35,842 nt of DNA from Candidatus Faecimonas gallistercoris (GTDB lineage: Bacteria > Bacillota_I > Bacilli_A > RF39 > UBA660). The stretch is from positions 1 to 35,842 of the forward strand of contig DVGU01000034.1 of NCBI GenBank assembly GCA_018712565.1, read 5' to 3'. Below, piece by piece: positions 6,347 to 35,842 of the stretch; within the stretch, counting starts at the first letter, position 1; every line of letters begins with the position of its first letter. The notes under the pieces were generated by a model, which worked only from the letters and a program-made list of their open reading frames with translations, was not told the DNA's origin and ran no database searches. Both the position numbers and the translations under genes were made by a program.

Positions 6347-6598
6347 ACGATTAGTTAAATTAACTCGGTCTGGTAAATTGTTAAAATCATCTCGTTCTAA
6401 AAACAATTCAAAAGGTTTAATATCTAGAGTTTTAGCAATTCGTTCTATTTTTTCAAGTGATGGACTATGTTGACCTCGTTCTAATCTGCCAACATAATTC
6501 GGACTTACTTGTAAAAGTTCTGCTAATTTCTCTTGAGTGTAATTTTTTCTATAACGATGATATTTTACATTTTTACCCAATATTGTTTTGAGTTTCAT
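6338..6598 (-). CDS. XRE-family (Cro/C1-type) single-domain regulator
   Basis: An 86-residue protein starting at the ATG at 6596-6598, which has an AGGTGA ribosome site; the frame is open further upstream but has no site there. The helix-turn-helix is YTQEKLAELLQVSPNYVGRLERG (residues ~18-40), followed by HSPSLEKIERIAKTLDIKP. This is the compact repressor type found in phages and integrative elements. A 9-bp inverted repeat overlaps its start (6597-6627) and a 16-bp palindrome lies in the divergent intergenic region (6661-6676), both good operator candidates for autoregulation and control of the plus-strand operon at 6751. Confidence 0.85.
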   Translation of the reverse strand: MKLKTILGKNVKYHRYRKNYTQEKLAELLQVSPNYVGRLERGQHSPSLEKIERIAKTLDIKPFELFLERDDFNNLPDRVNLTNRRK

Positions 6599-6627
6599 CG
6601 TATCACCTACTATTAATATGATACGAT
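6597..6627. promoter_or_regulatory. Candidate repressor operator over the start of the XRE gene
   Basis: ATCGTATCA (6597-6605) and TGATACGAT (6619-6627) form a perfect 9-bp inverted repeat with centres 22 bases apart, about two helical turns. It covers the start codon and ribosome site, as expected for an autoregulatory site of a dimeric repressor. Confidence 0.55.
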
Positions 6628-6660
6628 TTAATTTAGAATATAACCACAACCTAGACTGTA

Positions 6661-6676
6661 TAGTTAAATTTAACTA
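6661..6676. promoter_or_regulatory. 16-bp perfect palindrome between divergent genes
   Basis: TAGTTAAATTTAACTA reads the same on both strands. It lies between the minus-strand regulator and the plus-strand operon, so it is a candidate operator for a switch between them. A partial match (TTAGTTAAATTAACT) occurs inside the end of the regulator gene. Confidence 0.5.
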
Positions 6677-6708
6677 ATCACCCCATAAACAAATTTAAGA
6701 AAGGAGTG

Positions 6709-6738
6709 ATGAGTAAATACTTTAATAGGTTGTTTTAA
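6709..6738 (+). CDS. Possible nine-residue leader peptide
   Basis: ATG at 6709 begins a nine-codon frame (MSKYFNRLF) ending in TAA, just before the 6751 gene. An AAGGAG sequence lies only two bases before this ATG, closer than usual. It is the best ribosome site in the leader, since the 6751 gene has only a weak one. It could therefore be translated and coupled to the next gene, or the AAGGAG may be fortuitous. Confidence 0.22.
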   Translation: MSKYFNRLF

Positions 6739-6750
6739 AGTAGATCAAAT

Positions 6751-7053
6751 ATGAGAGATATACCTAAATTGATGATACAGCAACTTGAATCTTTTATTAG
6801 TGATTCTAAAATAATAGATAAGTATTATAAAATGGGACATAAAATAACTTGGAATTTAGAAGATTCTACTCTAATAGTAAAATATAAAAGAAAAAAGTTT
6901 GTTATTAGTATCATTAAAAAAGATAAGCAGTATTATTGGCATTTAGAACCATACAAGAAATCTTATTTTGAAACAGAAGTAGATTTTGAACATTGCAAAT
7001 TAAATTATGTATTATTTGCAATTTCTGAAAGTAGAAAGAAGGGAAAAATGTAA
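6751..7053 (+). CDS. Hypothetical protein, first gene of a three-gene operon
   Basis: A 100-residue soluble, basic protein with alternating strand-like segments (HKITWNLEDSTLIVKYKRKKFVISIIKK) and a C-terminal helix. No family is recognised; the compact alpha/beta look fits small proteins of mobile elements. Its stop overlaps the start of the next gene (TAATG at 7051-7055). The ribosome site at its own ATG is weak, which may mean translation depends on the short leader frame upstream. The position divergent from an XRE repressor suggests repressor-controlled expression. Confidence 0.6.
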   Translation: MRDIPKLMIQQLESFISDSKIIDKYYKMGHKITWNLEDSTLIVKYKRKKFVISIIKKDKQYYWHLEPYKKSYFETEVDFEHCKLNYVLFAISESRKKGKM

Positions 7054-7199
7054 TGAAAGAAAATAACAAAAAAGTAGTAAGTGTTGATAGTAATGATAAG
7101 ACAGACTGCTTCGCATGGCGATCTAAAGTAAAATGCGATGCCTTAAAAACTAAAACTTGTAAAGACTGTGCATTTTATAAAAAGAAAGGAAATCGATGA
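7053..7199 (+). CDS. Small cysteine-rich (probable zinc-binding) protein
   Basis: A 48-residue protein whose start overlaps the previous stop (TAATG) and whose stop overlaps the next start (ATGA), so it is clearly part of the operon. Four cysteines (C19, C28, C36, C39) lie in the pattern C-FAW, C-DAL, C-KDC-AFYK. I recall short proteins of this pattern, with a C..C-FYK ending, from conjugative and integrative elements of Bacillota, where they presumably fold around a zinc ion. A pull toward element biology is therefore reasonable, but no function is known. Confidence 0.65.
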   Translation: MKENNKKVVSVDSNDKTDCFAWRSKVKCDALKTKTCKDCAFYKKKGNR

Positions 7200-7939
7200 A
7201 ATTAGAAACAAAAAGAGCATTATTGATGTATAAATTATTAAGTTCTAGAGATTTTTGCCCAGAAACTTACAAAATATTAAAGTTTTGTGATCTTGATGAT
7301 GCTATTAATAATATTAATGAAGATTCCTTTTATTTTGATATTAAAGTAATTAATAATCAAATAAGTGCTGAACATTTTTTGAATTTATTAGATTATTTAA
7401 TACAAACTTTAAAATTGTATCTTTATAATACCAAAGGAATTATTTCTGCTTTAGAAACAATAGTTAGATGTAACAAAGATTTAGTAAATGAATATCTAAT
7501 ACTTCCGAATAAGTTAAGTAATGAAGAAGATAAAAAAATAATAAACGAATATATATATAAAATATTTATTTCTAATTTTATATATAATGGAAAATCTATC
7601 GATATGGTTATCGACTTTCTAAACGATAATAATATTACTATAAAAGAAATTAATTCTTACACTTTTGAAGAATTAAAAGCCATTACCGATTTATTATCCG
7701 ATTTAGTTTTTTGCCAAATGGGTGCTGGTAAGGTTTATTATTTATTTTATAATATTACAGATGAATTAGAAACTTGGCTAAATACACCTAGAGTTAAAAA
7801 TTCTAAAAAGCATAATGAAGAAGAACATAGACAGATATTTTTAAAAAGTTATAAGAACAATTATAAGGATATGATCAAGGCTTTTAATGTTAGGAAGAAA
7901 TATTTAAAATATTTTAGAAAACCAATAAACAACTGCTAG
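7196..7939 (+). CDS. Hypothetical helical protein, last gene of the operon
   Basis: A 247-residue protein, mostly helical, with no signal peptide or clear membrane helix. The N-terminus is acidic (CDLDDAINNINEDS), the middle is hydrophobic and helical, and the C-terminus is strongly basic (KNNYKDMIKAFNVRKKYLKYFRK). I recognise no domain or catalytic motif. The start ATG overlaps the stop of the small cysteine-rich gene, with an AAGGAAA-type site upstream, implying translational coupling. A strong terminator (7928-7957) includes its stop codon and closes the operon. Confidence 0.6.
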   Translation: MKLETKRALLMYKLLSSRDFCPETYKILKFCDLDDAINNINEDSFYFDIKVINNQISAEHFLNLLDYLIQTLKLYLYNTKGIISALETIVRCNKDLVNEYLILPNKLSNEEDKKIINEYIYKIFISNFIYNGKSIDMVIDFLNDNNITIKEINSYTFEELKAITDLLSDLVFCQMGAGKVYYLFYNITDELETWLNTPRVKNSKKHNEEEHRQIFLKSYKNNYKDMIKAFNVRKKYLKYFRKPINNC

Positions 7940-7957
7940 TACAGAGTTGTTTTTTTG
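7928..7957 (+). terminator. Terminator of the 6751-7939 operon
   Basis: Plus strand: stem AACAACT/AGTTGTT (7928-7934 with 7945-7951), a ten-base loop containing the stop codon, then a run of eight T. Confidence 0.8.
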
Positions 7958-7964
7958 TGCCAAC

Positions 7965-7987
7965 AAAAAAGAAGATTTAATCTTCTT
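7965..7987 (-). terminator. Terminator of the 7977-8255 gene
   Basis: Minus strand: stem AAGAAGA/TCTTCTT around a five-base loop, followed by a run of six T (7965-7970). It overlaps the stop codon and faces the terminator of the convergent operon. Confidence 0.65.
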
Positions 7988-8255
7988 CAAATTCTAGTTT
8001 TTCATAATCAATTATGTTTTTATTATATTTAAATTTAATCAAAAATGTAGCATTATTGATAATGTTTTCTTTTTCTTGTTTAGTTAATTGAATTTTTCTA
8101 TTTAATAAGTTGAATACATCATTTCCAGTTATTCCATTATACTTATTATTAGAAAACTCATAATTTAAATATACTAATTCAGATAACAATAAAGTATTAT
8201 AGTAAAGAATAGTTTTCCTTTCCTTAACTCGATAATCATAATCAATTAAACTCAT
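7977..8255 (-). CDS. Hypothetical protein of the left island
   Basis: A 92-residue protein starting at the ATG at 8253-8255, which has a GGAGG site six bases upstream. A longer frame reaching 8336 overlaps the next gene and lacks such a site. It is rich in Tyr, Asn and Lys, has no membrane segment, and ends in an acidic tail (YEKLEFEED). The segment ITGNDVFNLLNRKIQLTKQE looks helical. No family is recognised. It follows the DUF5655-like gene by about 55 bases on the same strand and is probably co-transcribed with it. Confidence 0.6.
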   Translation of the reverse strand: MSLIDYDYRVKERKTILYYNTLLLSELVYLNYEFSNNKYNGITGNDVFNLLNRKIQLTKQEKENIINNATFLIKFKYNKNIIDYEKLEFEED

Positions 8256-8310
8256 AATAATCCTCCATTGCTTGAATAGTACCTCTCTAAAAAGGCTTGT
8301 CAAATCATTA

Positions 8311-9030
8311 TTAAATATAAATTTTATAATATTCATTTTTTAAATCAATAGGATTAATTTTGTTTAACTTATAACTTTCTTGTATAAATGGTAGTATTAT
8401 ATCAATATCAGATAATTCTTTAACTTTGTAAGAAAGACATAATGGTTCGTATGTTTTTCGAGTTATAACATTTAAAATATGGTTATCATCATTTACACTT
8501 AATAATTTTAAATAAACTCCATACCCAGTTTTACTTATCATTACAAAGTTTCTATTATCCTTAAATACTAATCCTTTATTAGTGTAATGGCAAGTTATTG
8601 ATTTAGATATTGAAGTAATTTTATTTTTTAAATTATCAAACAGTATATCATTTAAATTTTTGGGTGGATCTACTAAAAAATCAAAAGTTTGCCTCATTAT
8701 TTTAACTACATAATTGCAAGTAATATTATCTTCTACAATCATAGAATAACAGATGCTTCCATTTTCATATCCTTTACGATCAAACAATTTATTATCTGTA
8801 TCAAATTGTTTAGCAACTTTATGAAATGAAACTAAAAGATTACTTTGATTAATTTGTATTTCCATTATTTTTCTATTAAACTTATAAACTACATTTTTAA
8901 CTAAATAATTTCTAATTATATTATCACTAATAGATAATATTTGCGAATCCAACTCATTAAATAAATTAATTGATATTTCTTTTTTGTTATAAATTATATT
9001 TTCATAGGTATTGGTATCAATATTAAACAA
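8311..9030 (-). CDS. DUF5655-like protein, 5'-truncated at an island/core junction
   Basis: The first possible start is a TTG at 9028-9030, giving 239 residues, but the frame stays open and protein-like up to 9237 with no ATG, GTG or TTG. The true start has therefore probably been lost. The C-terminal ~110 residues (DILFDNLKNKITSIS..., GYGVYLKLLSV, ELSDIDIILPFIQESYKL) resemble the DUF5655 'predicted transport protein' domain seen in mobile-element and restriction neighbourhoods. Upstream, the open frame overlaps the broken 3' end of the PBP gene in another frame. It is likely a non-functional or altered remnant; an unusual start cannot be excluded. Confidence 0.55.
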   Translation of the reverse strand: MFNIDTNTYENIIYNKKEISINLFNELDSQILSISDNIIRNYLVKNVVYKFNRKIMEIQINQSNLLVSFHKVAKQFDTDNKLFDRKGYENGSICYSMIVEDNITCNYVVKIMRQTFDFLVDPPKNLNDILFDNLKNKITSISKSITCHYTNKGLVFKDNRNFVMISKTGYGVYLKLLSVNDDNHILNVITRKTYEPLCLSYKVKELSDIDIILPFIQESYKLNKINPIDLKNEYYKIYI

Positions 9031-9188
9031 TTTATTATTAATTTTTTTGCTGGCATCTTTTAAAGTCGGTAGTGTTATATTACTTTCATTATTGATTTTT
9101 ATTTCTTCATTATTTTGATAAATTACATTATCATAAATTAAATGAAATGAAGAACAAACATCAATTTGGGTAGAAGTTTTTTGATTAT

Positions 9189-10283
9189 TTAAAGGGCTTT
9201 CTTGAAATTTATATGTGTTGCTGTATTGACACCAAGATTACAAGAATTTTGTAATACTTGAAGAAATGTTTGTTCTCCATGACCTCCTGCTTTCCAACAT
9301 CTAAGTGTGGAGCCATCTACATTAACACTTCCTGCATCATAAAAGTGGTCTTTATTAAGATCTACTACTTTTTCTTCTACAGCTGCGGCTGTTGTGATTA
9401 TTTTAAAAGTAGATCCTGGTTCATAGGAGGCCCAGATAGGTAAATTTCTACTTAATACCTCCTGGGAATACTCTTGATAGTTATTCGGATCATAATCTGG
9501 ACGAGATGCCATACCTAAAATTTCACCGTTATTAGGGTCCATAACAACAGCTAAGGCCATATCAGGAGAAAACATATCTACTATATTATCTAACTCTCGT
9601 TCTAATGATTTTTGGATATTAATATCTATTGTTAAAGAGATATTCATACCATCCTGTGGCTCAACATAAATATCAGATAAATTTAGTTTGTTTCCTTTAG
9701 CATCTGAGAAATATTTAATTGCTCCACTTTTTCCTGTTAAATACTTATCATATTGTAGTTCTAATCCAGATAATCCTTGATTATCGATTCCAACATATCC
9801 TAGGCTATGAGATAACATGTTTTTGTAGGGATAATTTCTCTTTGATTCTTTTACTAAATAGACTCCATCTAATTTTAAGTTAGAAATTTTCTCTGCAATA
9901 TCATATGACAATCTTCTTCCCTCTGGGTGAACACGCTCAATTGATGTTTTCTTATACACATGTTCTTTCATATCACTATAGCTAACATTTAATATTTCTG
10001 CTAATAACTTTGTTGTTTTCTTCTTATTTTTTATTTGGTTTGGTATTAGAACTAAAGATGTCGTTGTTAGATTATCTGCAAGTACAACACCATTTCTATC
10101 TAATATTAGACCTCTATCTGCTTCTAGTGGAAGATCTCTACTCCATAATTCAGATGCATATTTATTTAATTTTTTATAATCTATTATTTGGACATAGAAA
10201 ACTCTTAATATAATAAAAATAAAAAGAAGTAATAAAAGTAAAAATACTATTTTGATTCGTTCATCTATTTTTTTTAAAAACAT
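9189..10283 (-). pseudogene. SpoVD/PBP2-like class B penicillin-binding protein, truncated in the transpeptidase domain
   Basis: 364 residues remain: an N-terminal anchor (~11-33), the dimerisation domain, and the start of the transpeptidase domain with the acylation motif STFK (S291, K294) and SCN (347-349). A complete protein would continue another ~200 residues with KTG and often PASTA. Here the family sequence ends just after NSCNLG, and 13 unrelated residues follow before the stop. Without KTG it cannot be an active transpeptidase. Promoter (10302-10330) and ribosome site (AGAGGTG) are intact, so it may still be expressed. The break coincides with the 5' end of the DUF5655-like remnant. 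A complete paralogue lies at 21047-23206. Confidence 0.85.
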
Positions 10284-14116: not shown

Positions 14117-16802
14117 AAGCTGCTTTTGTATTTGCTTGTTCTTGTGCTTGTTGTTTAGAGGCATATTCACTTACCATTTTAGTTATATCGTTTTCATAAG
14201 AATTATTATTATTGTATGTTTGTGTAGCCTTAGCACATTGATAAGCTAGAGCAGCTGTTCCAGCAGCTCCTAATAGTGTTGTTTGTAAATCGCTTGGTAA
14301 ACTTTGAAGAGCTTGTACTTGTTCTATGGATAATCCAGCTAGGGTATCACCCATATCTGTTACATCTGCCATGGCTTTATACATATCAGGAATTGCTTGT
14401 GGATTTTGAACTAAATAATTCATAGCATTTCCAACTTCACTCAATTCAAATTGAGGATGAGATTGCATATACGTATTAAAGCTTGATTCAGCATTTTTAA
14501 TAGTACTGGTTAAAGTATTATTTGCTTTTGTAGCCATATCTGCAAAGGCTGCTGTTACATCACTTTGACTTAAATCTCCTACAGAGTACTTGGCAGTAAT
14601 ATCTTCAATTTGTTGTTGAGCAGCTTCAAAAGAATTTTTGGCAGTTTCATGAGCGATATTATCTGCACTTCTATAGATATCACTACCTGTCCAACCATGT
14701 CCAGCATTTACTGATAGATTACTAGCATTCCTTTCACCTATATTTAGGGTATTTATTGAATCACTATTTGCCTGAGCTTGCATACCTTGATTAAATACAT
14801 CACGTTTTCCAGCAATATCTCTTCCTGTTTGATGTATTTGATCAATCGTTTGTTGATTGGCTGCATTTACTTTGTTAGCGTGATCTTGTTGTTGGTCTAA
14901 AATTTGATCTGCTTTTATATTATGTGTATAAAATGCATTTCCCATTGCAATTGAACCTAAAATTGATGAAGTTGTTACAAATACATTTCTTATAAATGGA
15001 TCATCTCTATAATCCAACTCACCTACCAAAGGCGAATATTGCATTCTACCTTCTGCTTTTGGTCCCCAGAATCCTTCTTTTACTTTTGTCTCATTACTTT
15101 TTAATACTTCGTAATCTATAAAGTTTTTTAGAGCATTTTCATCATCATGTGCTTTTACTGCATCTACTTCTTGGCGCTCTAGAGTAGCTTTTTTACTTTG
15201 AAGTTCTTGTGCATAATCATCCCAGTCATAGCTCTTGGCGAATCTTTTTCCTGGAAGAGACATTTTAGTTCTAGATGCTTTCATATCTTCACTAAAGCCA
15301 TGACTACCACCAGAATACCATTTATTTCCTTCTTTGTAATTTTCTCTGATTTTGCCTATTAATTCGGCTTTACCAGATAATAAGTTGTCTTTCTGGGCTT
15401 GAAGAATTATCCTATCTTCTTCTTTTAATCCTTTTTTAGAAAGTTCTTTATCTATTGTTTGAATGACTTGATAGTCATTAAAAACTTTTTGATATCCCTT
15501 GGCTATTTCTAGATTTATTTTACCGACTTTTTCATTGGCAAATCTTTGCATTCTGTCATTTAATAGAATGTTTAACGCTGTTGGAAAACGGTCTTGAAGT
15601 ACTTGTCCACCTTTATATTCATTCCAAATTACCATTAACCTATCTTCATCTAAGTTGTCAATTCTTTCTTTTAATATTTTCATGGTGTCTTCTTGGTCAT
15701 TTGCTTTATTTCTCCATTTGCTCCAATATTTTTTTATTGTAGCAATTGGTGCTTTTTTTAGGCTAGAGAAAAATTGTGTAATATTATAAAGTTTTTCTTT
15801 TTCACTTAATTCTCTTTTAAAGTTTTTAGTTACTGATATATTAGATGCTTCGTACCTTTCTCCTGCCTTTTTTTGTATATACAAATCTTTTGTCAAGTCT
15901 TGCATAATCTCTTGTAGCGTCCAATCTTTCTTTGGTAATCTTGGAATTTCTTTTTCGTCTTCCTTTGGCTTAGGTAGTCTTGGGATTTCTTTTTCATCCT
16001 CTTTTGGCTTAGGTAATCTTGGAATATCTTTTTCGTCTTCTTTAGGCTTTGGTAGCCTTGGAATGTTTTTGTCATCTTCCCTTGGCTTTGGTAATCTTGG
16101 AATATTTTCATTATTTTGTCTTAGATTTGGTTCATTAGGATTTTCTTTGGTAGGGTTTTTATCTTCCACTCTCTTAGGTGAAAATACACCTAGTTTACTA
16201 AGATTATCGTAATAGTCTGCTAGAAAATTTATATATTCTTGATCTGTTTCATCTGGTTTTCTATTTCTTGGTTTTGCAATTGCTGTTCCATCAAAAAAGC
16301 GAATATTGCCATTTTCATCTAAGTCATAAATATCTAAATTTGGCTTTTGTTGATTGTTTGTTTGTTTTGGGTTTTGTTGTTGTGTAGGATTCTTTGGTCT
16401 AGAATTTGAATTTTGGTTCTTGTTTATATCATTTAATACTATATTTCTTATTTCTTCTTGTAATTCTTCTGGTAAGACTTTTCTAGATGATTTTATTTCT
16501 TCTTCTAATCGTTCTCTTTCTTCAAAGTTTTTCCGATCTGTTTCTTCTCTTGCATAGTCATCTAGAATATTTAATCTTTTTATATTTCGAAGCATATTAT
16601 CATAAGCTCGATTAAGTCTTTGGTTTTCTTCTAAGCTTTTTTGGGCATTTTCAATATAATGATTAATTTTTTCTAGTTCACTATTATATGTTTCTTCAGT
16701 CATATTATCTCTTGCTTGATTTAGATTTCTTATTTCATCATTCAAATGTGCAATTTCATTTTGACTTTCTTCTATTTGTTTCCTTATTTCTTCAATATTC
16801 AT
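14115..16802 (-). CDS. Large coiled-coil protein with tandem proline-rich repeats, unknown
   Basis: 895 residues. Residues ~1-125 are a heptad-like, Glu/Asn-rich coiled coil. Residues ~130-230 are low-complexity Gln/Asn/Pro. Residues 233-291 hold four 13-residue repeats (IPRLPKPKEDEK type) plus a partial fifth. Residues ~300-600 are highly charged and helical. One moderately hydrophobic stretch lies near 604-625 (VTTSSILGSIAMGNAF), and the C-terminal ~270 residues are Ala/Gln/Asn-rich helices. There is no signal peptide and no enzyme motif. The architecture suggests a cytoskeletal, scaffold or surface-associated structural protein. It shares a transcription direction with the DUF1292 gene 18 bases upstream. 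Confidence 0.65.
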   Translation of the reverse strand: MNIEEIRKQIEESQNEIAHLNDEIRNLNQARDNMTEETYNSELEKINHYIENAQKSLEENQRLNRAYDNMLRNIKRLNILDDYAREETDRKNFEERERLEEEIKSSRKVLPEELQEEIRNIVLNDINKNQNSNSRPKNPTQQQNPKQTNNQQKPNLDIYDLDENGNIRFFDGTAIAKPRNRKPDETDQEYINFLADYYDNLSKLGVFSPKRVEDKNPTKENPNEPNLRQNNENIPRLPKPREDDKNIPRLPKPKEDEKDIPRLPKPKEDEKEIPRLPKPKEDEKEIPRLPKKDWTLQEIMQDLTKDLYIQKKAGERYEASNISVTKNFKRELSEKEKLYNITQFFSSLKKAPIATIKKYWSKWRNKANDQEDTMKILKERIDNLDEDRLMVIWNEYKGGQVLQDRFPTALNILLNDRMQRFANEKVGKINLEIAKGYQKVFNDYQVIQTIDKELSKKGLKEEDRIILQAQKDNLLSGKAELIGKIRENYKEGNKWYSGGSHGFSEDMKASRTKMSLPGKRFAKSYDWDDYAQELQSKKATLERQEVDAVKAHDDENALKNFIDYEVLKSNETKVKEGFWGPKAEGRMQYSPLVGELDYRDDPFIRNVFVTTSSILGSIAMGNAFYTHNIKADQILDQQQDHANKVNAANQQTIDQIHQTGRDIAGKRDVFNQGMQAQANSDSINTLNIGERNASNLSVNAGHGWTGSDIYRSADNIAHETAKNSFEAAQQQIEDITAKYSVGDLSQSDVTAAFADMATKANNTLTSTIKNAESSFNTYMQSHPQFELSEVGNAMNYLVQNPQAIPDMYKAMADVTDMGDTLAGLSIEQVQALQSLPSDLQTTLLGAAGTAALAYQCAKATQTYNNNNSYENDITKMVSEYASKQQAQEQANTKAA
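15930..16106 (-). repeat. 39-bp in-frame tandem repeat
   Basis: Four 39-bp units and a partial fifth encode 13-residue units IPRLPKP(K/R)ED(E/D)K with a variable N, D or E between. Copies differ by synonymous and a few conservative changes, so this is an expanded but ageing array that could still vary in copy number. Confidence 0.85.
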
Positions 16803-16820
16803 ATTTTTTCACCCTCACCA

Positions 16821-17087
16821 TTAATCATTTGCTATCTTTTCTAATACCTTTTGTACCATTTCTAATTCTTTTTGATCTGTAATATTTTCAAGTTCTCCTG
16901 TTCCAATCATTGTATCATAATAACCTACATAAATATTTTCTCTTCCATTTTTTGCTATACTATGATCTGAATAACCAATATATACTCTATTTAATTCTTC
17001 GTTTTCAAAGGTAAATAATATATCACAGTCTACTTCTTTTCCATTTTTTACGATTGTTATTTTTCCTAAATCATCTACTTGTTCCAT
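16821..17087 (-). CDS. DUF1292-family protein
   Basis: An 88-residue acidic protein of the DUF1292 family, which includes Bacillus YrzB and is widespread in Bacillota. The pattern is a nucleotide-sized beta-rich core (GKEVDCDILFTFENEELNRVY, then IYVGYYD) followed by an acidic C-terminal helix (DQKELEMVQKVLEKIAND). Function is unknown across the family. The ATG has a GGGAGG site. It lies 18 bases before the 895-residue protein gene and is probably co-transcribed with it. Confidence 0.72.
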   Translation of the reverse strand: MEQVDDLGKITIVKNGKEVDCDILFTFENEELNRVYIGYSDHSIAKNGRENIYVGYYDTMIGTGELENITDQKELEMVQKVLEKIAND

Positions 17088-32328: not shown

Positions 32329-34398
32329 CTATCTTTCTTTTTTGTCTTCTATTACTTCTTTTGTTTCAGGAATTATAGTAATTGTACCTGATGAACTTGT
32401 TGCTAAAAAAGGGATTCTTTCTTGTTGTAGTCTTGTTAATACTTCTTCATTAGGATGATTATATCTATTATTCTTTCCTACTGATATTATTGCTAATTTA
32501 GGTGAAGTTGCTTTTAAGAATGATAAACTGCTACTAGTATTTGAACCATGATGTCCTATTTTTAATACATCTGTTTTTAAGTGATAGTGTTGTTGTAGGT
32601 ACTCTTCTGTTTCTGCTGTTGCATCTCCCATAAGTAAAATACTTAAATTAGGATGTGTTACATAATATACAGAACTACTTGTATTTTCGTCATTCCACTC
32701 TTTATTCATTTGATACAATGTGTAATTGCCTATGGAAAACATTTCATCTTGATTGGCTTTTTTTATATTTTTTTCATTTTTTATTAATTCTTGTTCTAAT
32801 TCTTTTTCTTCTCCTAAATTTAAATAGATGTTATTTATTTTAAAATTATCTTTTAAATAGACTATTTCCCCCATATGATCTTGATCTGCATGTGTTAAAA
32901 ATACAGTATTTATTTTTTTTATTCCTAAACTTTTTAACAATGGTATGGTTATGTATTTTGTGATAGAGGTAGATTTTTCATCTCTATTATAACTTACTTT
33001 TCCTCCTGTATCTATTAGAGCGGTATATCCTTTTGAATATAGCAAGATTGAATCTCCCTGACCTACATCTATTATTTTAATGAAGTCTTTTTGAAAATAA
33101 GTTGGTAGGATATAATGAAGTATGAAACATAATACGTAGATTATCATTAATTTATTACTTTTAGTCTTTAATATTAAAAATAATAAAATTAAATATATAA
33201 AATAAATTACTATTAACACTTTAGCAAATATAAGTTTTCCTATGGAAATATTGGCTAGAAAAAGAGATGTGTTTTCTAATATTTGTATCAAGAGATTATA
33301 TATTGGTTCTATGATAGGAAAAACAAAGGTTAGCATACTTGCTGGGAATAAAATAATATTAACATAAGGAATATAAAATAAATTATATAAAATGCTTAAT
33401 ATATTGATTTGATTAAAATAATATAGGCTAATTGGAATACTTAGTAAAAATGAAATTATTGAACTTTTTACTAGTGTTTTGAAATAGTTATTTTCTGCTT
33501 TCATAAATAGTAATAGTCCAATACTAATTACATAAGAATACCAAAAGGCAATTTCAGTAATATAAAACGGATTTATTAATAGTGTCATGATGATAGAAAT
33601 TATAATTAGTTGTTTTCTTTCTAATGATAGTTTCCATACTTTATTAATAGAAAAAAGAAAAAAGAATAAAATACTTCTTATCATTGATGCTGTATACTCT
33701 ATTATAGATAAATAACATAATAAGACTATAAATACTATTTTATACTTAGTTTTTTCTTTTATATTTACTTTTTTTAATATTTTTAATAGGAAGGATGCAT
33801 ATAGATAAAACTGCATCCCACTTATAGCAAACAAATGACTGATGCCATTTTCTTGATAACTAGTTTTTACTTCTTCTTTTATATCCTGAGTATCTCCTAG
33901 GAGGAATGATTTTATATAGGGATTGGTAGTTCTTTTTTGTATTTTATCTTTTACTTGGTATTTTATATTTAGTGAATTATCTTTTTTTATTATTTCTTTT
34001 ATTTTCATTATATAATATATTTTTTGCCCCTTTAGATATTGTTTATAGTTAAAAAGATTCTTGGTCGTTGGTGTACTTGGTTCTTGGATGGTTCCTTTTA
34101 TAATTATTTTATTTCCTAATTTTATATTTTTTAAATATTGTATTTTTTCTGATTGGTTTTTGAAATAGTATGTTCCCTGTATTTTTTCTTGTCCTTTTAC
34201 TATTATAGTTGCTTTGTTGTTTTCTAATTTATTATTTATTAGAATTCCTTCTACCTGGCTTGTATTTTCGTTATATTTTGATTGAATGGGAATATTGATT
34301 CTTATTAAGGTAATTAGTATTGCTAAAGCTAGTAAAGAGTAGTATGTAATATTAGACTGTAATTTGTTCTTTGATTTTTTCGTATGTAGAGTCTCCAA
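32329..34398 (-). CDS. comEC: DNA uptake channel protein ComEC/Rec2
   Basis: A 689-residue polytopic membrane protein for transport of single-stranded DNA during natural transformation. In order: transmembrane helices and an OB-like DUF4131 segment (~1-150), the Competence membrane domain (~165-425), and a metallo-beta-lactamase domain with IDVGQGDSILL, LIDTGG, the metal site HADQDHMG, and KIGHHGS. All key motifs are kept. The start is TTG (34396-34398), nested 47 bases within comEA, with AAAGG nine bases before it, giving translational coupling. Somewhat shorter than typical (~750). Other late competence genes are not in the window. Confidence 0.9.
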   Translation of the reverse strand: METLHTKKSKNKLQSNITYYSLLALAILITLIRINIPIQSKYNENTSQVEGILINNKLENNKATIIVKGQEKIQGTYYFKNQSEKIQYLKNIKLGNKIIIKGTIQEPSTPTTKNLFNYKQYLKGQKIYYIMKIKEIIKKDNSLNIKYQVKDKIQKRTTNPYIKSFLLGDTQDIKEEVKTSYQENGISHLFAISGMQFYLYASFLLKILKKVNIKEKTKYKIVFIVLLCYLSIIEYTASMIRSILFFFLFSINKVWKLSLERKQLIIISIIMTLLINPFYITEIAFWYSYVISIGLLLFMKAENNYFKTLVKSSIISFLLSIPISLYYFNQINILSILYNLFYIPYVNIILFPASMLTFVFPIIEPIYNLLIQILENTSLFLANISIGKLIFAKVLIVIYFIYLILLFLILKTKSNKLMIIYVLCFILHYILPTYFQKDFIKIIDVGQGDSILLYSKGYTALIDTGGKVSYNRDEKSTSITKYITIPLLKSLGIKKINTVFLTHADQDHMGEIVYLKDNFKINNIYLNLGEEKELEQELIKNEKNIKKANQDEMFSIGNYTLYQMNKEWNDENTSSSVYYVTHPNLSILLMGDATAETEEYLQQHYHLKTDVLKIGHHGSNTSSSLSFLKATSPKLAIISVGKNNRYNHPNEEVLTRLQQERIPFLATSSSGTITIIPETKEVIEDKKER

Positions 34399-35041
34399 TA
34401 CCAGATACCTTTTTTAAATCTTCAATGGTTTGAAACGGAGTTTTTTTTCGATATTCGATAATGGCTTCTGCTTTGGTCTCTCCTATTCCTGATAAGGTCA
34501 TTAATTCTTCCTTGGTAGCAGTATTAATATTTATTGTAGTATTTGCGTTATTTTCTTCTGGTGTTGATGTTGAATCTATACAAGCATTATTTTCTACTTG
34601 CCCCTCTTCATTATTTTTACATTTTTCTTGTAAGTACTGTTCTTGTTGTTTTGTTTGAAGCCAATTTTCTACTTCCCATTTACTATAGATAATAATTACC
34701 ATTTCGTCTGCTATTTTCTTACTTAAATTAATCACCGTGGTATCTGCATTCTCTGTTAATCCTCCAGCTTTTTCAATCACATCAATTACTCTAGCATCTT
34801 TTTTTAGTTTATATATTCCTGGTACTTGTATTTCTCCTTTAATATCTATCATATATTCTTCTTGGTTTTTATTTTGTATCTGTTTATTTGTATTTTCCTT
34901 TTTTAATGATATGGTGTCTACTGTTTTTTTCTTAGGTCGTGTTTGATATTTATAAATACCAAACCCGATTATACTTCCTATTATAATTATTATTCCAACT
35001 ATAATTCGTATTTGTTTTCTGTATCGATAATGAAACGTCAT
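34352..35041 (-). CDS. comEA: DNA receptor ComEA
   Basis: A 229-residue protein. One transmembrane helix (~11-29) anchors it. Residues ~62-120 form a SLBB-type domain (IKGEIQVPGIYKL, VIDVIEKAGGLTENAD). After an Asn/Thr/Glu-rich linker, the helix-hairpin-helix pair (INTATKEELMTLSGIG, IEDLKKVSGIGDSTYEKI) at ~168-226 binds double-stranded DNA at the cell surface. The gene overlaps comEC. A GAGGGGG site four bases before the ATG is strong. The product delivers DNA to ComEC. Confidence 0.93.
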   Translation of the reverse strand: MTFHYRYRKQIRIIVGIIIIIGSIIGFGIYKYQTRPKKKTVDTISLKKENTNKQIQNKNQEEYMIDIKGEIQVPGIYKLKKDARVIDVIEKAGGLTENADTTVINLSKKIADEMVIIIYSKWEVENWLQTKQQEQYLQEKCKNNEEGQVENNACIDSTSTPEENNANTTININTATKEELMTLSGIGETKAEAIIEYRKKTPFQTIEDLKKVSGIGDSTYEKIKEQITV

Positions 35042-35123
35042 AATACCCCCTCATTTTTATTACTAGCACAAAAGAGTTAAGTAAACTTACTTTTTTCGAC
35101 TGTCACATTCCAAGGTTCCTGCT

Positions 35124-35210
35124 TCATAGACTAGGTATTCCTACTTCGTGATTGCTTGTTGCTACCATAGTTTTGTTTACTATTTGGATAAAGTCTAAAC
35201 TTATAAACTT
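35124..35210 (-). pseudogene. Probable C-terminal remnant of a TnpB (IS200/IS605-type) gene
   Basis: Minus-strand reading gives an open C-terminal peptide ending IVNKTMVATSNHEVGIPSL and TGA, followed by a GAAGCAGGAACC-like stretch. Short tails of the type EVGIPSL followed by GAAGCAGGAACC are what I recall at the right end of IS200/IS605-family tnpB genes, where the reRNA scaffold also lies. No catalytic part of TnpB remains. This rests on pattern memory and needs a nucleotide search. Its presence would mark an old insertion next to the oriT-like region. Confidence 0.35.
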
Positions 35211-35301
35211 TATATATAATAATCCCTCCTGATGTACTCACTATATTATACTCTGTTTTTTCGCCTTTCCCTTATTAAACACTTTAATTTCTTAAAAAAG
35301 A

Positions 35302-35346
35302 CACTATATTACTACATATCATAAATACATACATAGTAATATAGTG
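35302..35346. repeat. 13-bp perfect inverted repeat next to the oriT-like region
   Basis: CACTATATTACTA (35302-35314) and TAGTAATATAGTG (35334-35346) with a 19-base spacer. On the minus strand it is followed by TCTTTTTTAAG, so it can also act as a terminator. It is about 34 bases from the oriT inverted repeat. Confidence 0.6.
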
Positions 35347-35351
35347 CTTAA

Positions 35352-35446
35352 ATGGGGGGTCAAAAGGGTTCTCCCTTTGCACACATCGTTATTGGCTCTA
35401 CCAATATCGTAGTGTGTTACTATCTTGTCTAAAAGATAGTTTTTTT
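35352..35446 (+). other. MOBV (pMV158-type) origin of transfer, candidate
   Basis: A 16-base imperfect inverted repeat (35380-35395 with 35401-35416, loop CTCTA) begins GCACACA and ends TAGTGTG. TTA follows directly, matching the pMV158 MobM nick motif TAGTGTG/TTA, so nicking would fall between 35416 and 35417. A GGGGGGTC tract and a small hairpin (AAAGGG/CCCTTT) precede it, a layout I recall for Bacillota mobilisable elements. A third hairpin (ACTATCTT/AAGATAGT, 35419-35440) with a T-run follows. No relaxase gene is in the window. Confidence 0.7.
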
Positions 35447-35491
35447 GAAATCATTACTAGATATAAAACATTTTAAATTTTTGCGAATAAT

Positions 35492-35842
35492 CTATCGTGT
35501 TTTTCCTTTTGATTCCTTATTCATTTCATACGAATATAATCTATCAAGTTGTTCATCGTTTATGTGAATTACTTTTCCACCAACCGGATTAATCTTGATT
35601 CCACTAAAAACTATCCATATTGCATCTATTGGTGTACTTGGCATATTTGCATATCCATCTGTAAAAATTATCTTATTTTCAACTCTTCTTGTAAATGCGT
35701 TAACAGCCACATCAAAGTTAGTTCCACCACCACCATAAAATTCCAAATTGTCAATATCGGATACATCTTTAATTTCAGTAAAACCATAAAATTGTGTATC
35801 AAAACATCCAACTTTAACTTTAGATGTTTGTAATATATTTTT
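35492..35842 (-). CDS. VWA-like domain protein, partial (5' end outside window)
   Basis: The last 116 residues of a larger protein are visible; the frame is open to the window edge. The sequence (GCFDTQFYGF, then FYGGGGTNFDVAV, KIIFTDGYANMPS, WIVFSG and a C-terminal KVIHIND) matches the C-terminal part of the VWA-like domain found with metallopeptidase-like N-termini (DUF2201 type): the GGGT-N and TDG positions correspond to metal-site loops. Such proteins typically pair with a MoxR-type AAA ATPase, which would lie beyond the edge. The gene ends about 45 bases from the oriT-like region, so it may be cargo of, or simply next to, a mobilisable element. Confidence 0.72.
   Translation of the reverse strand, partial: KNILQTSKVKVGCFDTQFYGFTEIKDVSDIDNLEFYGGGGTNFDVAVNAFTRRVENKIIFTDGYANMPSTPIDAIWIVFSGIKINPVGGKVIHINDEQLDRLYSYEMNKESKGKTR

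Follow-up and report, generated by a model that had tools for sequence, protein, structure and literature searches.

A MOBV-type transfer origin beside comEA marks one end of a probably truncated integrative mobilisable element in Candidatus Faecimonas gallistercoris

What does a relaxase nick motif signify when it lies next to core competence genes? The stretch of DNA analysed here (the window, 35,842 nucleotides) is the entire contig C7 of a 1.29 Mb assembly of Candidatus Faecimonas gallistercoris (74 contigs, 89% complete). Near its right edge the first-pass annotation had noticed an inverted repeat running from GCACACA to TAGTGTG and then TTA, and had proposed that the window ends inside an integrated mobilisable element or that an origin alone had been captured. 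The setting was described correctly. comEA (34352–35041, − strand; Pfam SLBB and HHH_3), which has comEC and a dnaI-like gene after it just as genus mates do, is chromosomal flank and starts about 0.31 kb from the motif (0.3 kb had been given); a partial VWA-like gene ends at 35492, 45 bases beyond the limit of 35446 drawn for the motif. Our reading is that 35293–35842 is very probably the oriT end of an integrative mobilisable element (IME) with a MOBV relaxase, truncated so that the recombinase half is gone.

On the + strand, 35379–35419 reads GCACACATCGTTATTGGCTCTACCAATATCGTAGTGTGTTA. This is the sole match in the window to GCACAC-(25 nt)-TAGTGTGTTA, and the pattern GCACAC-N24-34-TAGTGTGTTA has one match in the window against none in 100 dinucleotide shuffles. 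The likeness to the pMV158 relaxase motif is borne out by comparison: the nick site of MobM, tabulated as 5′-TAGTGTG/TTA-3′ (PMC5090054), is present exactly, beside a hairpin with a GCACAC arm, and the predicted nick (G/T) falls between 35416 and 35417. Folded as single-stranded DNA, the core (35376–35425) reaches −9.9 kcal/mol (z −5.25 against shuffles) and the whole region (35349–35450) −19.4 (z −6.66), with three stem-loops. The first (AAAGGG-TTCT-CCCTTT, 35363–35378, + strand) is helix 1 of A3, with 94.5% of cells paired and compensatory change in four of four pairs. The core itself (35379–35419, + strand; GCACAC, central hairpin, TAGTGTG/TTA) is marked by fold, covariation and nick motif. 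The third (ACTATC...GATAGT, 35419–35440, + strand), followed by a T run, is helix 4 of A3, 91.8% paired with compensatory change in all six pairs. The nick hairpin singled out at first is thus real, but the origin holds three stem-loops and not one. Similarly, the origin does lie within 35352–35446 as first drawn, whereas the element-derived block begins further left, at 35293, and includes an AT-rich inverted repeat (35302–35346, + strand; 18-nt arms, 9-nt spacing; z −7.36) that is also seen in the copies on C64, C38 and L156.

A covariance model (R1) was built from the window oriT and searched in 193 genomes of the same family and in an order sample of 385. It finds five copies in this genome, the window copy scoring 102.7 bits. 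From 35293 to the contig end the block shares 96% identity with the end of contig C64; parts of it are 90% identical to C38:9207–9357 and 82% identical to C48:2524–2649, and a fifth copy was detected by the model at C48:10320–10396. We note that the core of the copy at C48:2524–2649, which adjoins a queuosine salvage gene, is damaged (GCTCAA / TAGCGGG); it is probably a dead origin. Relatives occur in 61 of the 193 same-family genomes (56 of 148 genera) and in 118 of the 385 genomes of the order sample, where all of the matches listed belong to the same family. When 54 copies were aligned, 96.4% of stem cells paired and 18 of 23 pairs showed compensatory changes, values somewhat favoured by fitting the alignment to the model but reached by no shuffle; sliding the partners abolishes the pairing. 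The compensatory changes extend to the arm beside the nick (CATAC/GTATG in L045). Judged from sequence, such a pattern is expected of a relaxase target that is under selection in its single-stranded DNA form. The oriT family is large, clearly conserved and widespread in small-genome gut Bacilli.

The oriT is also genetically linked to MOBV relaxases. Three MOBV relaxases are encoded in the genome, on C38, where one occupies 15745–17028, and on C48 (PF01076, E ~1e-30; NCBIfam MobV above cut-off); all three carry the invariant HxDExxPHxH motif and one matches MobM structures (4lvi and others). The most similar relaxases are found in Candidatus Onthousia and further uncultured Bacilli, for the most part of animal guts. 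At most loci with enough sequence the MOBV gene lies to the right of oriT on the opposite strand. Viewed from the relaxase side in the named genomes, an oriT is found 3′ of the gene on the opposite strand at 48 of 80 loci, and at 29 of the 32 that offer at least 8 kb of room; the median distance is 3.1 kb (maximum 8.4 kb), with cargo genes between. Across the 193 genomes, 52 have both oriT and MOBV, 9 oriT only, 39 MOBV only and 93 neither (Fisher p = 1.8e-13, a value that overstates independence because the genomes are related). The nine with an oriT and no MOBV match (G039, G072, G103, G117, G126, G131, G136, G147 and G159) contain either origin-only elements or gaps from incomplete assembly. 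The outcome that would have told against the first proposal, a motif with neither conservation nor a relaxase, did not occur. The window motif is a MOBV-type oriT, and its cutting by a relaxase is predicted.

The oriT belongs to a family of IMEs. Integrase, relaxase and oriT are found together on C38, C48, L050 and others, the lack of full conjugation machinery being judged from the genes seen inside the elements. Three layouts were observed: (i) serine recombinase, ssb-like gene, HTH genes, membrane protein, oriT, cargo and MOBV; (ii) oriT, cargo, MOBV, tyrosine integrase and an excisionase-like gene; and (iii) oriT, cargo, MOBV and serine recombinase. In complete members of layout (i) the AT-rich inverted repeat sits between the membrane protein gene and oriT, and MOBV reads towards oriT. 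The elements of C64 and G187:C46 have this layout and are 99.3% identical over 5.4 kb in different genera (loci L011 and L115), which indicates recent transfer unless one of the bins is contaminated. It seems that the C64 element has split a rhuM-like gene, of which one part on C38 and one on C64, compared separately, correspond to residues 6–213 and 222–303 of one relative. Elsewhere, the same lipoprotein-like gene, following cdaA/ybbR-like genes, adjoins the relaxase end in three genomes, at L043 (8175–8483), L010 (3469–3789) and L046 (262–600), a likely integration hot spot. The proposal that the right edge of the window lies inside an integrated mobilisable element holds, since blocks of the window type also stand next to MOBV relaxases and serine recombinases at other sites in the genome.

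The window block ends within its cargo. The VWA-like gene (35492–35842, − strand) comprises the last 116 codons of a DUF2201 metallopeptidase/VWA gene, inside which the contig stops. Complete relatives encode about 515 aa. The fragment scores 26.8 bits with Pfam DUF2201 (cut-off 26.4) and is 95.7% identical to residues 404–519 of the G187 protein. It is the first cargo gene, the same gene as in L156 and G187. The remainder was sought in the same genome and none was found beyond two contig ends, C7 and C64 both stopping at the same base in the gene. Locus L156 has the unit undivided, with relaxase, HTH, small genes, reverse transcriptase, ATPase-like gene, a 133-aa gene, DUF2201/VWA gene and oriT. 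Over 550 bp it matches the window block at 93.5% identity. By comparison with L156 the window copy's own relaxase is expected some 7–8 kb to the right, and the contig ends before it. The idea of an origin captured alone is therefore only partly sustained: cargo came along with the origin, but the recombinase half is missing, so a stranded origin able to act on chromosomal DNA is possible.

Two cargo regions merit a remark. At L156 (3764–8681) the cargo consists of the reverse transcriptase, the ATPase-like gene, the small protein and the DUF2201 metallopeptidase/VWA gene; PADLOC gave no match for the VWA, small and ATPase-like relatives, and this type of cargo might be an undescribed defence or conflict system. 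At L009 (C48, 4766–10396) an isoleucyl-tRNA synthetase-like gene (6422–9544) looks like IME cargo because it lies between the MOBV relaxase and oriT. No other full match of this kind was found in the genome, and matches in 13 genus mates are only ~34% identical to it. No T-box or other leader RNA before it was matched in Rfam. The gene could encode a replacement or an inhibitor-insensitive enzyme.

The left boundary of the window block reveals the truncation. Similarity to C64, C38 and G187:C46 starts at 35293; these copies share further sequence leftward, which the window copy lacks. To the left of oriT, C64, C38, G187 and L043 have the accessory module and, where the contig reaches, the recombinase module. 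With this left module absent at 35293, the window copy lacks a recombinase and one of the two attachment ends; no att repeat can be identified for it because the left att end is lost and the right one lies beyond the contig. Between 35293 and the comEA leader there is instead a remnant of about 230 bases (35062–35292, − strand, ends uncertain by a few bases) of an IS605-type TnpB element, its left end touching the IME and its right end the leader. The remnant shares its ends with tnpB-bearing copies and retains the tnpB start and right end, the middle being deleted. Genus mates carry many related copies or pieces of it, frequently where contigs end; in one copy (L015:1576–2502) the tnpB frame is open to the end of the locus (Pfam OrfB_IS605 and HTH_OrfB_IS605). 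About a dozen genus mates show the ancestral neighbourhood, in which comEA comes right after a DHH-family gene, only a short gap lies between them and neither insertion is present. In the present assembly ftsW and a DHH gene of more divergent sequence are located on another contig, C52, where the DHH gene is followed by a group II intron-like reverse-transcriptase unit that an IS30-like transposase gene divides in two; no IME end was found in the first 450 bases of C52.

It could be argued that nothing has been lost, and that 35293 is the true left end of a natural form of the element, as in the tyrosine-integrase relatives, where oriT is outermost. In these and in one serine type (L044, L048, L116, L097, L049) nothing element-like was indeed recognised left of oriT. 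The window block, however, is 93–96% identical to the other type, of which C64 and G187 continue leftward into the recombinase module. The boundary moreover coincides with the end of the IS, and in L156, where an IS with a DDE transposase lies near the same spot left of oriT, similar leftward sequence resumes beyond it. We consider a natural left end quite improbable.

The join of comEA, IS and oriT, like the window end, is known from a fragmented metagenome assembly and is close to a contig edge. The last 550 bases might come from another locus, wrongly joined to the comEA contig, and C7 and C64 do stop at the same VWA base, the mark of an assembler halted by a repeat. Two observations make a chimeric join unlikely. 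The IS end and the IME have only about 8 bases in common at the junction, too few for a k-mer join, and the block differs by at least 4% from every other copy in this genome, the difference from C64 (~4%) running throughout. We therefore regard an artefact as very improbable. That comEA or the VWA gene has in the hairpins its transcription terminator or an RNA element is hardly credible, in spite of the T run after stem-loop 3, given that no Rfam family scores above threshold in window or region, that the unit tracks MOBV relaxases across many genera with different cargo, and that it is absent beside comEA in genus mates.

Returning to the truncated IME, the simplest order of events that the arrangement suggests has three steps. 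The IME would first have inserted in the gap between comEA and the DHH gene, an IS would then have entered near the inverted repeat of the IME, and the DNA from the comEA side to this IS would finally have been deleted, for instance when two IS copies recombined. The IS605/TnpB element standing today between comEA and oriT was probably involved in the deletion that removed the recombinase half. Since the recombinase end is missing, self-excision of the window copy is not expected.

The oriT itself is intact. By analogy with MobM, a relaxase would bind to the hairpin and nick the + strand within TAGTGTG/TTA, at 35416/35417; as in pMV158 and IMESag-rpsI, the + strand to the right of the nick, cargo first, would then pass into a recipient through the secretion channel of a helper. 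It is possible, going by the motifs, that the other MOBV relaxases of the genome act on the window oriT in trans, since the oriTs linked to them share most of the core and that of C38 nearly all. We also consider, as a doubtful extension, that truncation has left an intact oriT fixed in the chromosome between comEA and its neighbour, from which relaxases of other elements in the same cell could start Hfr-like transfer of chromosomal DNA. If so, comEA and comEC would be the last to enter.

A transfer-origin family defined by covariation makes direct searches of uncultured gut Bacilli possible and marks mobilisable elements that would otherwise go unrecognised. What such elements carry can be located by a simple rule, since the cargo bay lies between oriT and relaxase. 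The window copy also sets apart two things that are often confused, the presence of an origin and the ability of that origin still to leave the chromosome.

A search of the literature on such elements in RF39-like Bacilli found nothing relevant; comparison with better-known systems is informative. The closest plasmid relaxases (~37% identity) are those of small MOBV plasmids of Priestia, which share GCACAC-hairpin-AGTGTGTTC upstream of mobV but are not integrated, have oriT directly upstream of mobV and are missed by the covariance model. The Tn4451 family and other serine-recombinase IMEs of Firmicutes combine a large serine recombinase with a MobV relaxase and have no conjugation channel of their own (PMC5704250). 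The present family likewise has a large serine recombinase and a MobV relaxase; it differs in its accessory genes (ssb-like, HTH, membrane protein) and apparently in an oriT far from the relaxase, and the window copy differs further in having no recombinase. In IMESag-rpsI the oriT is followed by the mob gene, whereas here 0.5–8 kb, occupied by cargo, separate it from the 3′ end of a relaxase gene that runs on the opposite strand. The origin of pMV158 (MobM, MOBV1) has the same nick site and an adjoining hairpin, which differs in sequence, and the structural match of the genome's relaxase to MobM agrees with this kinship.
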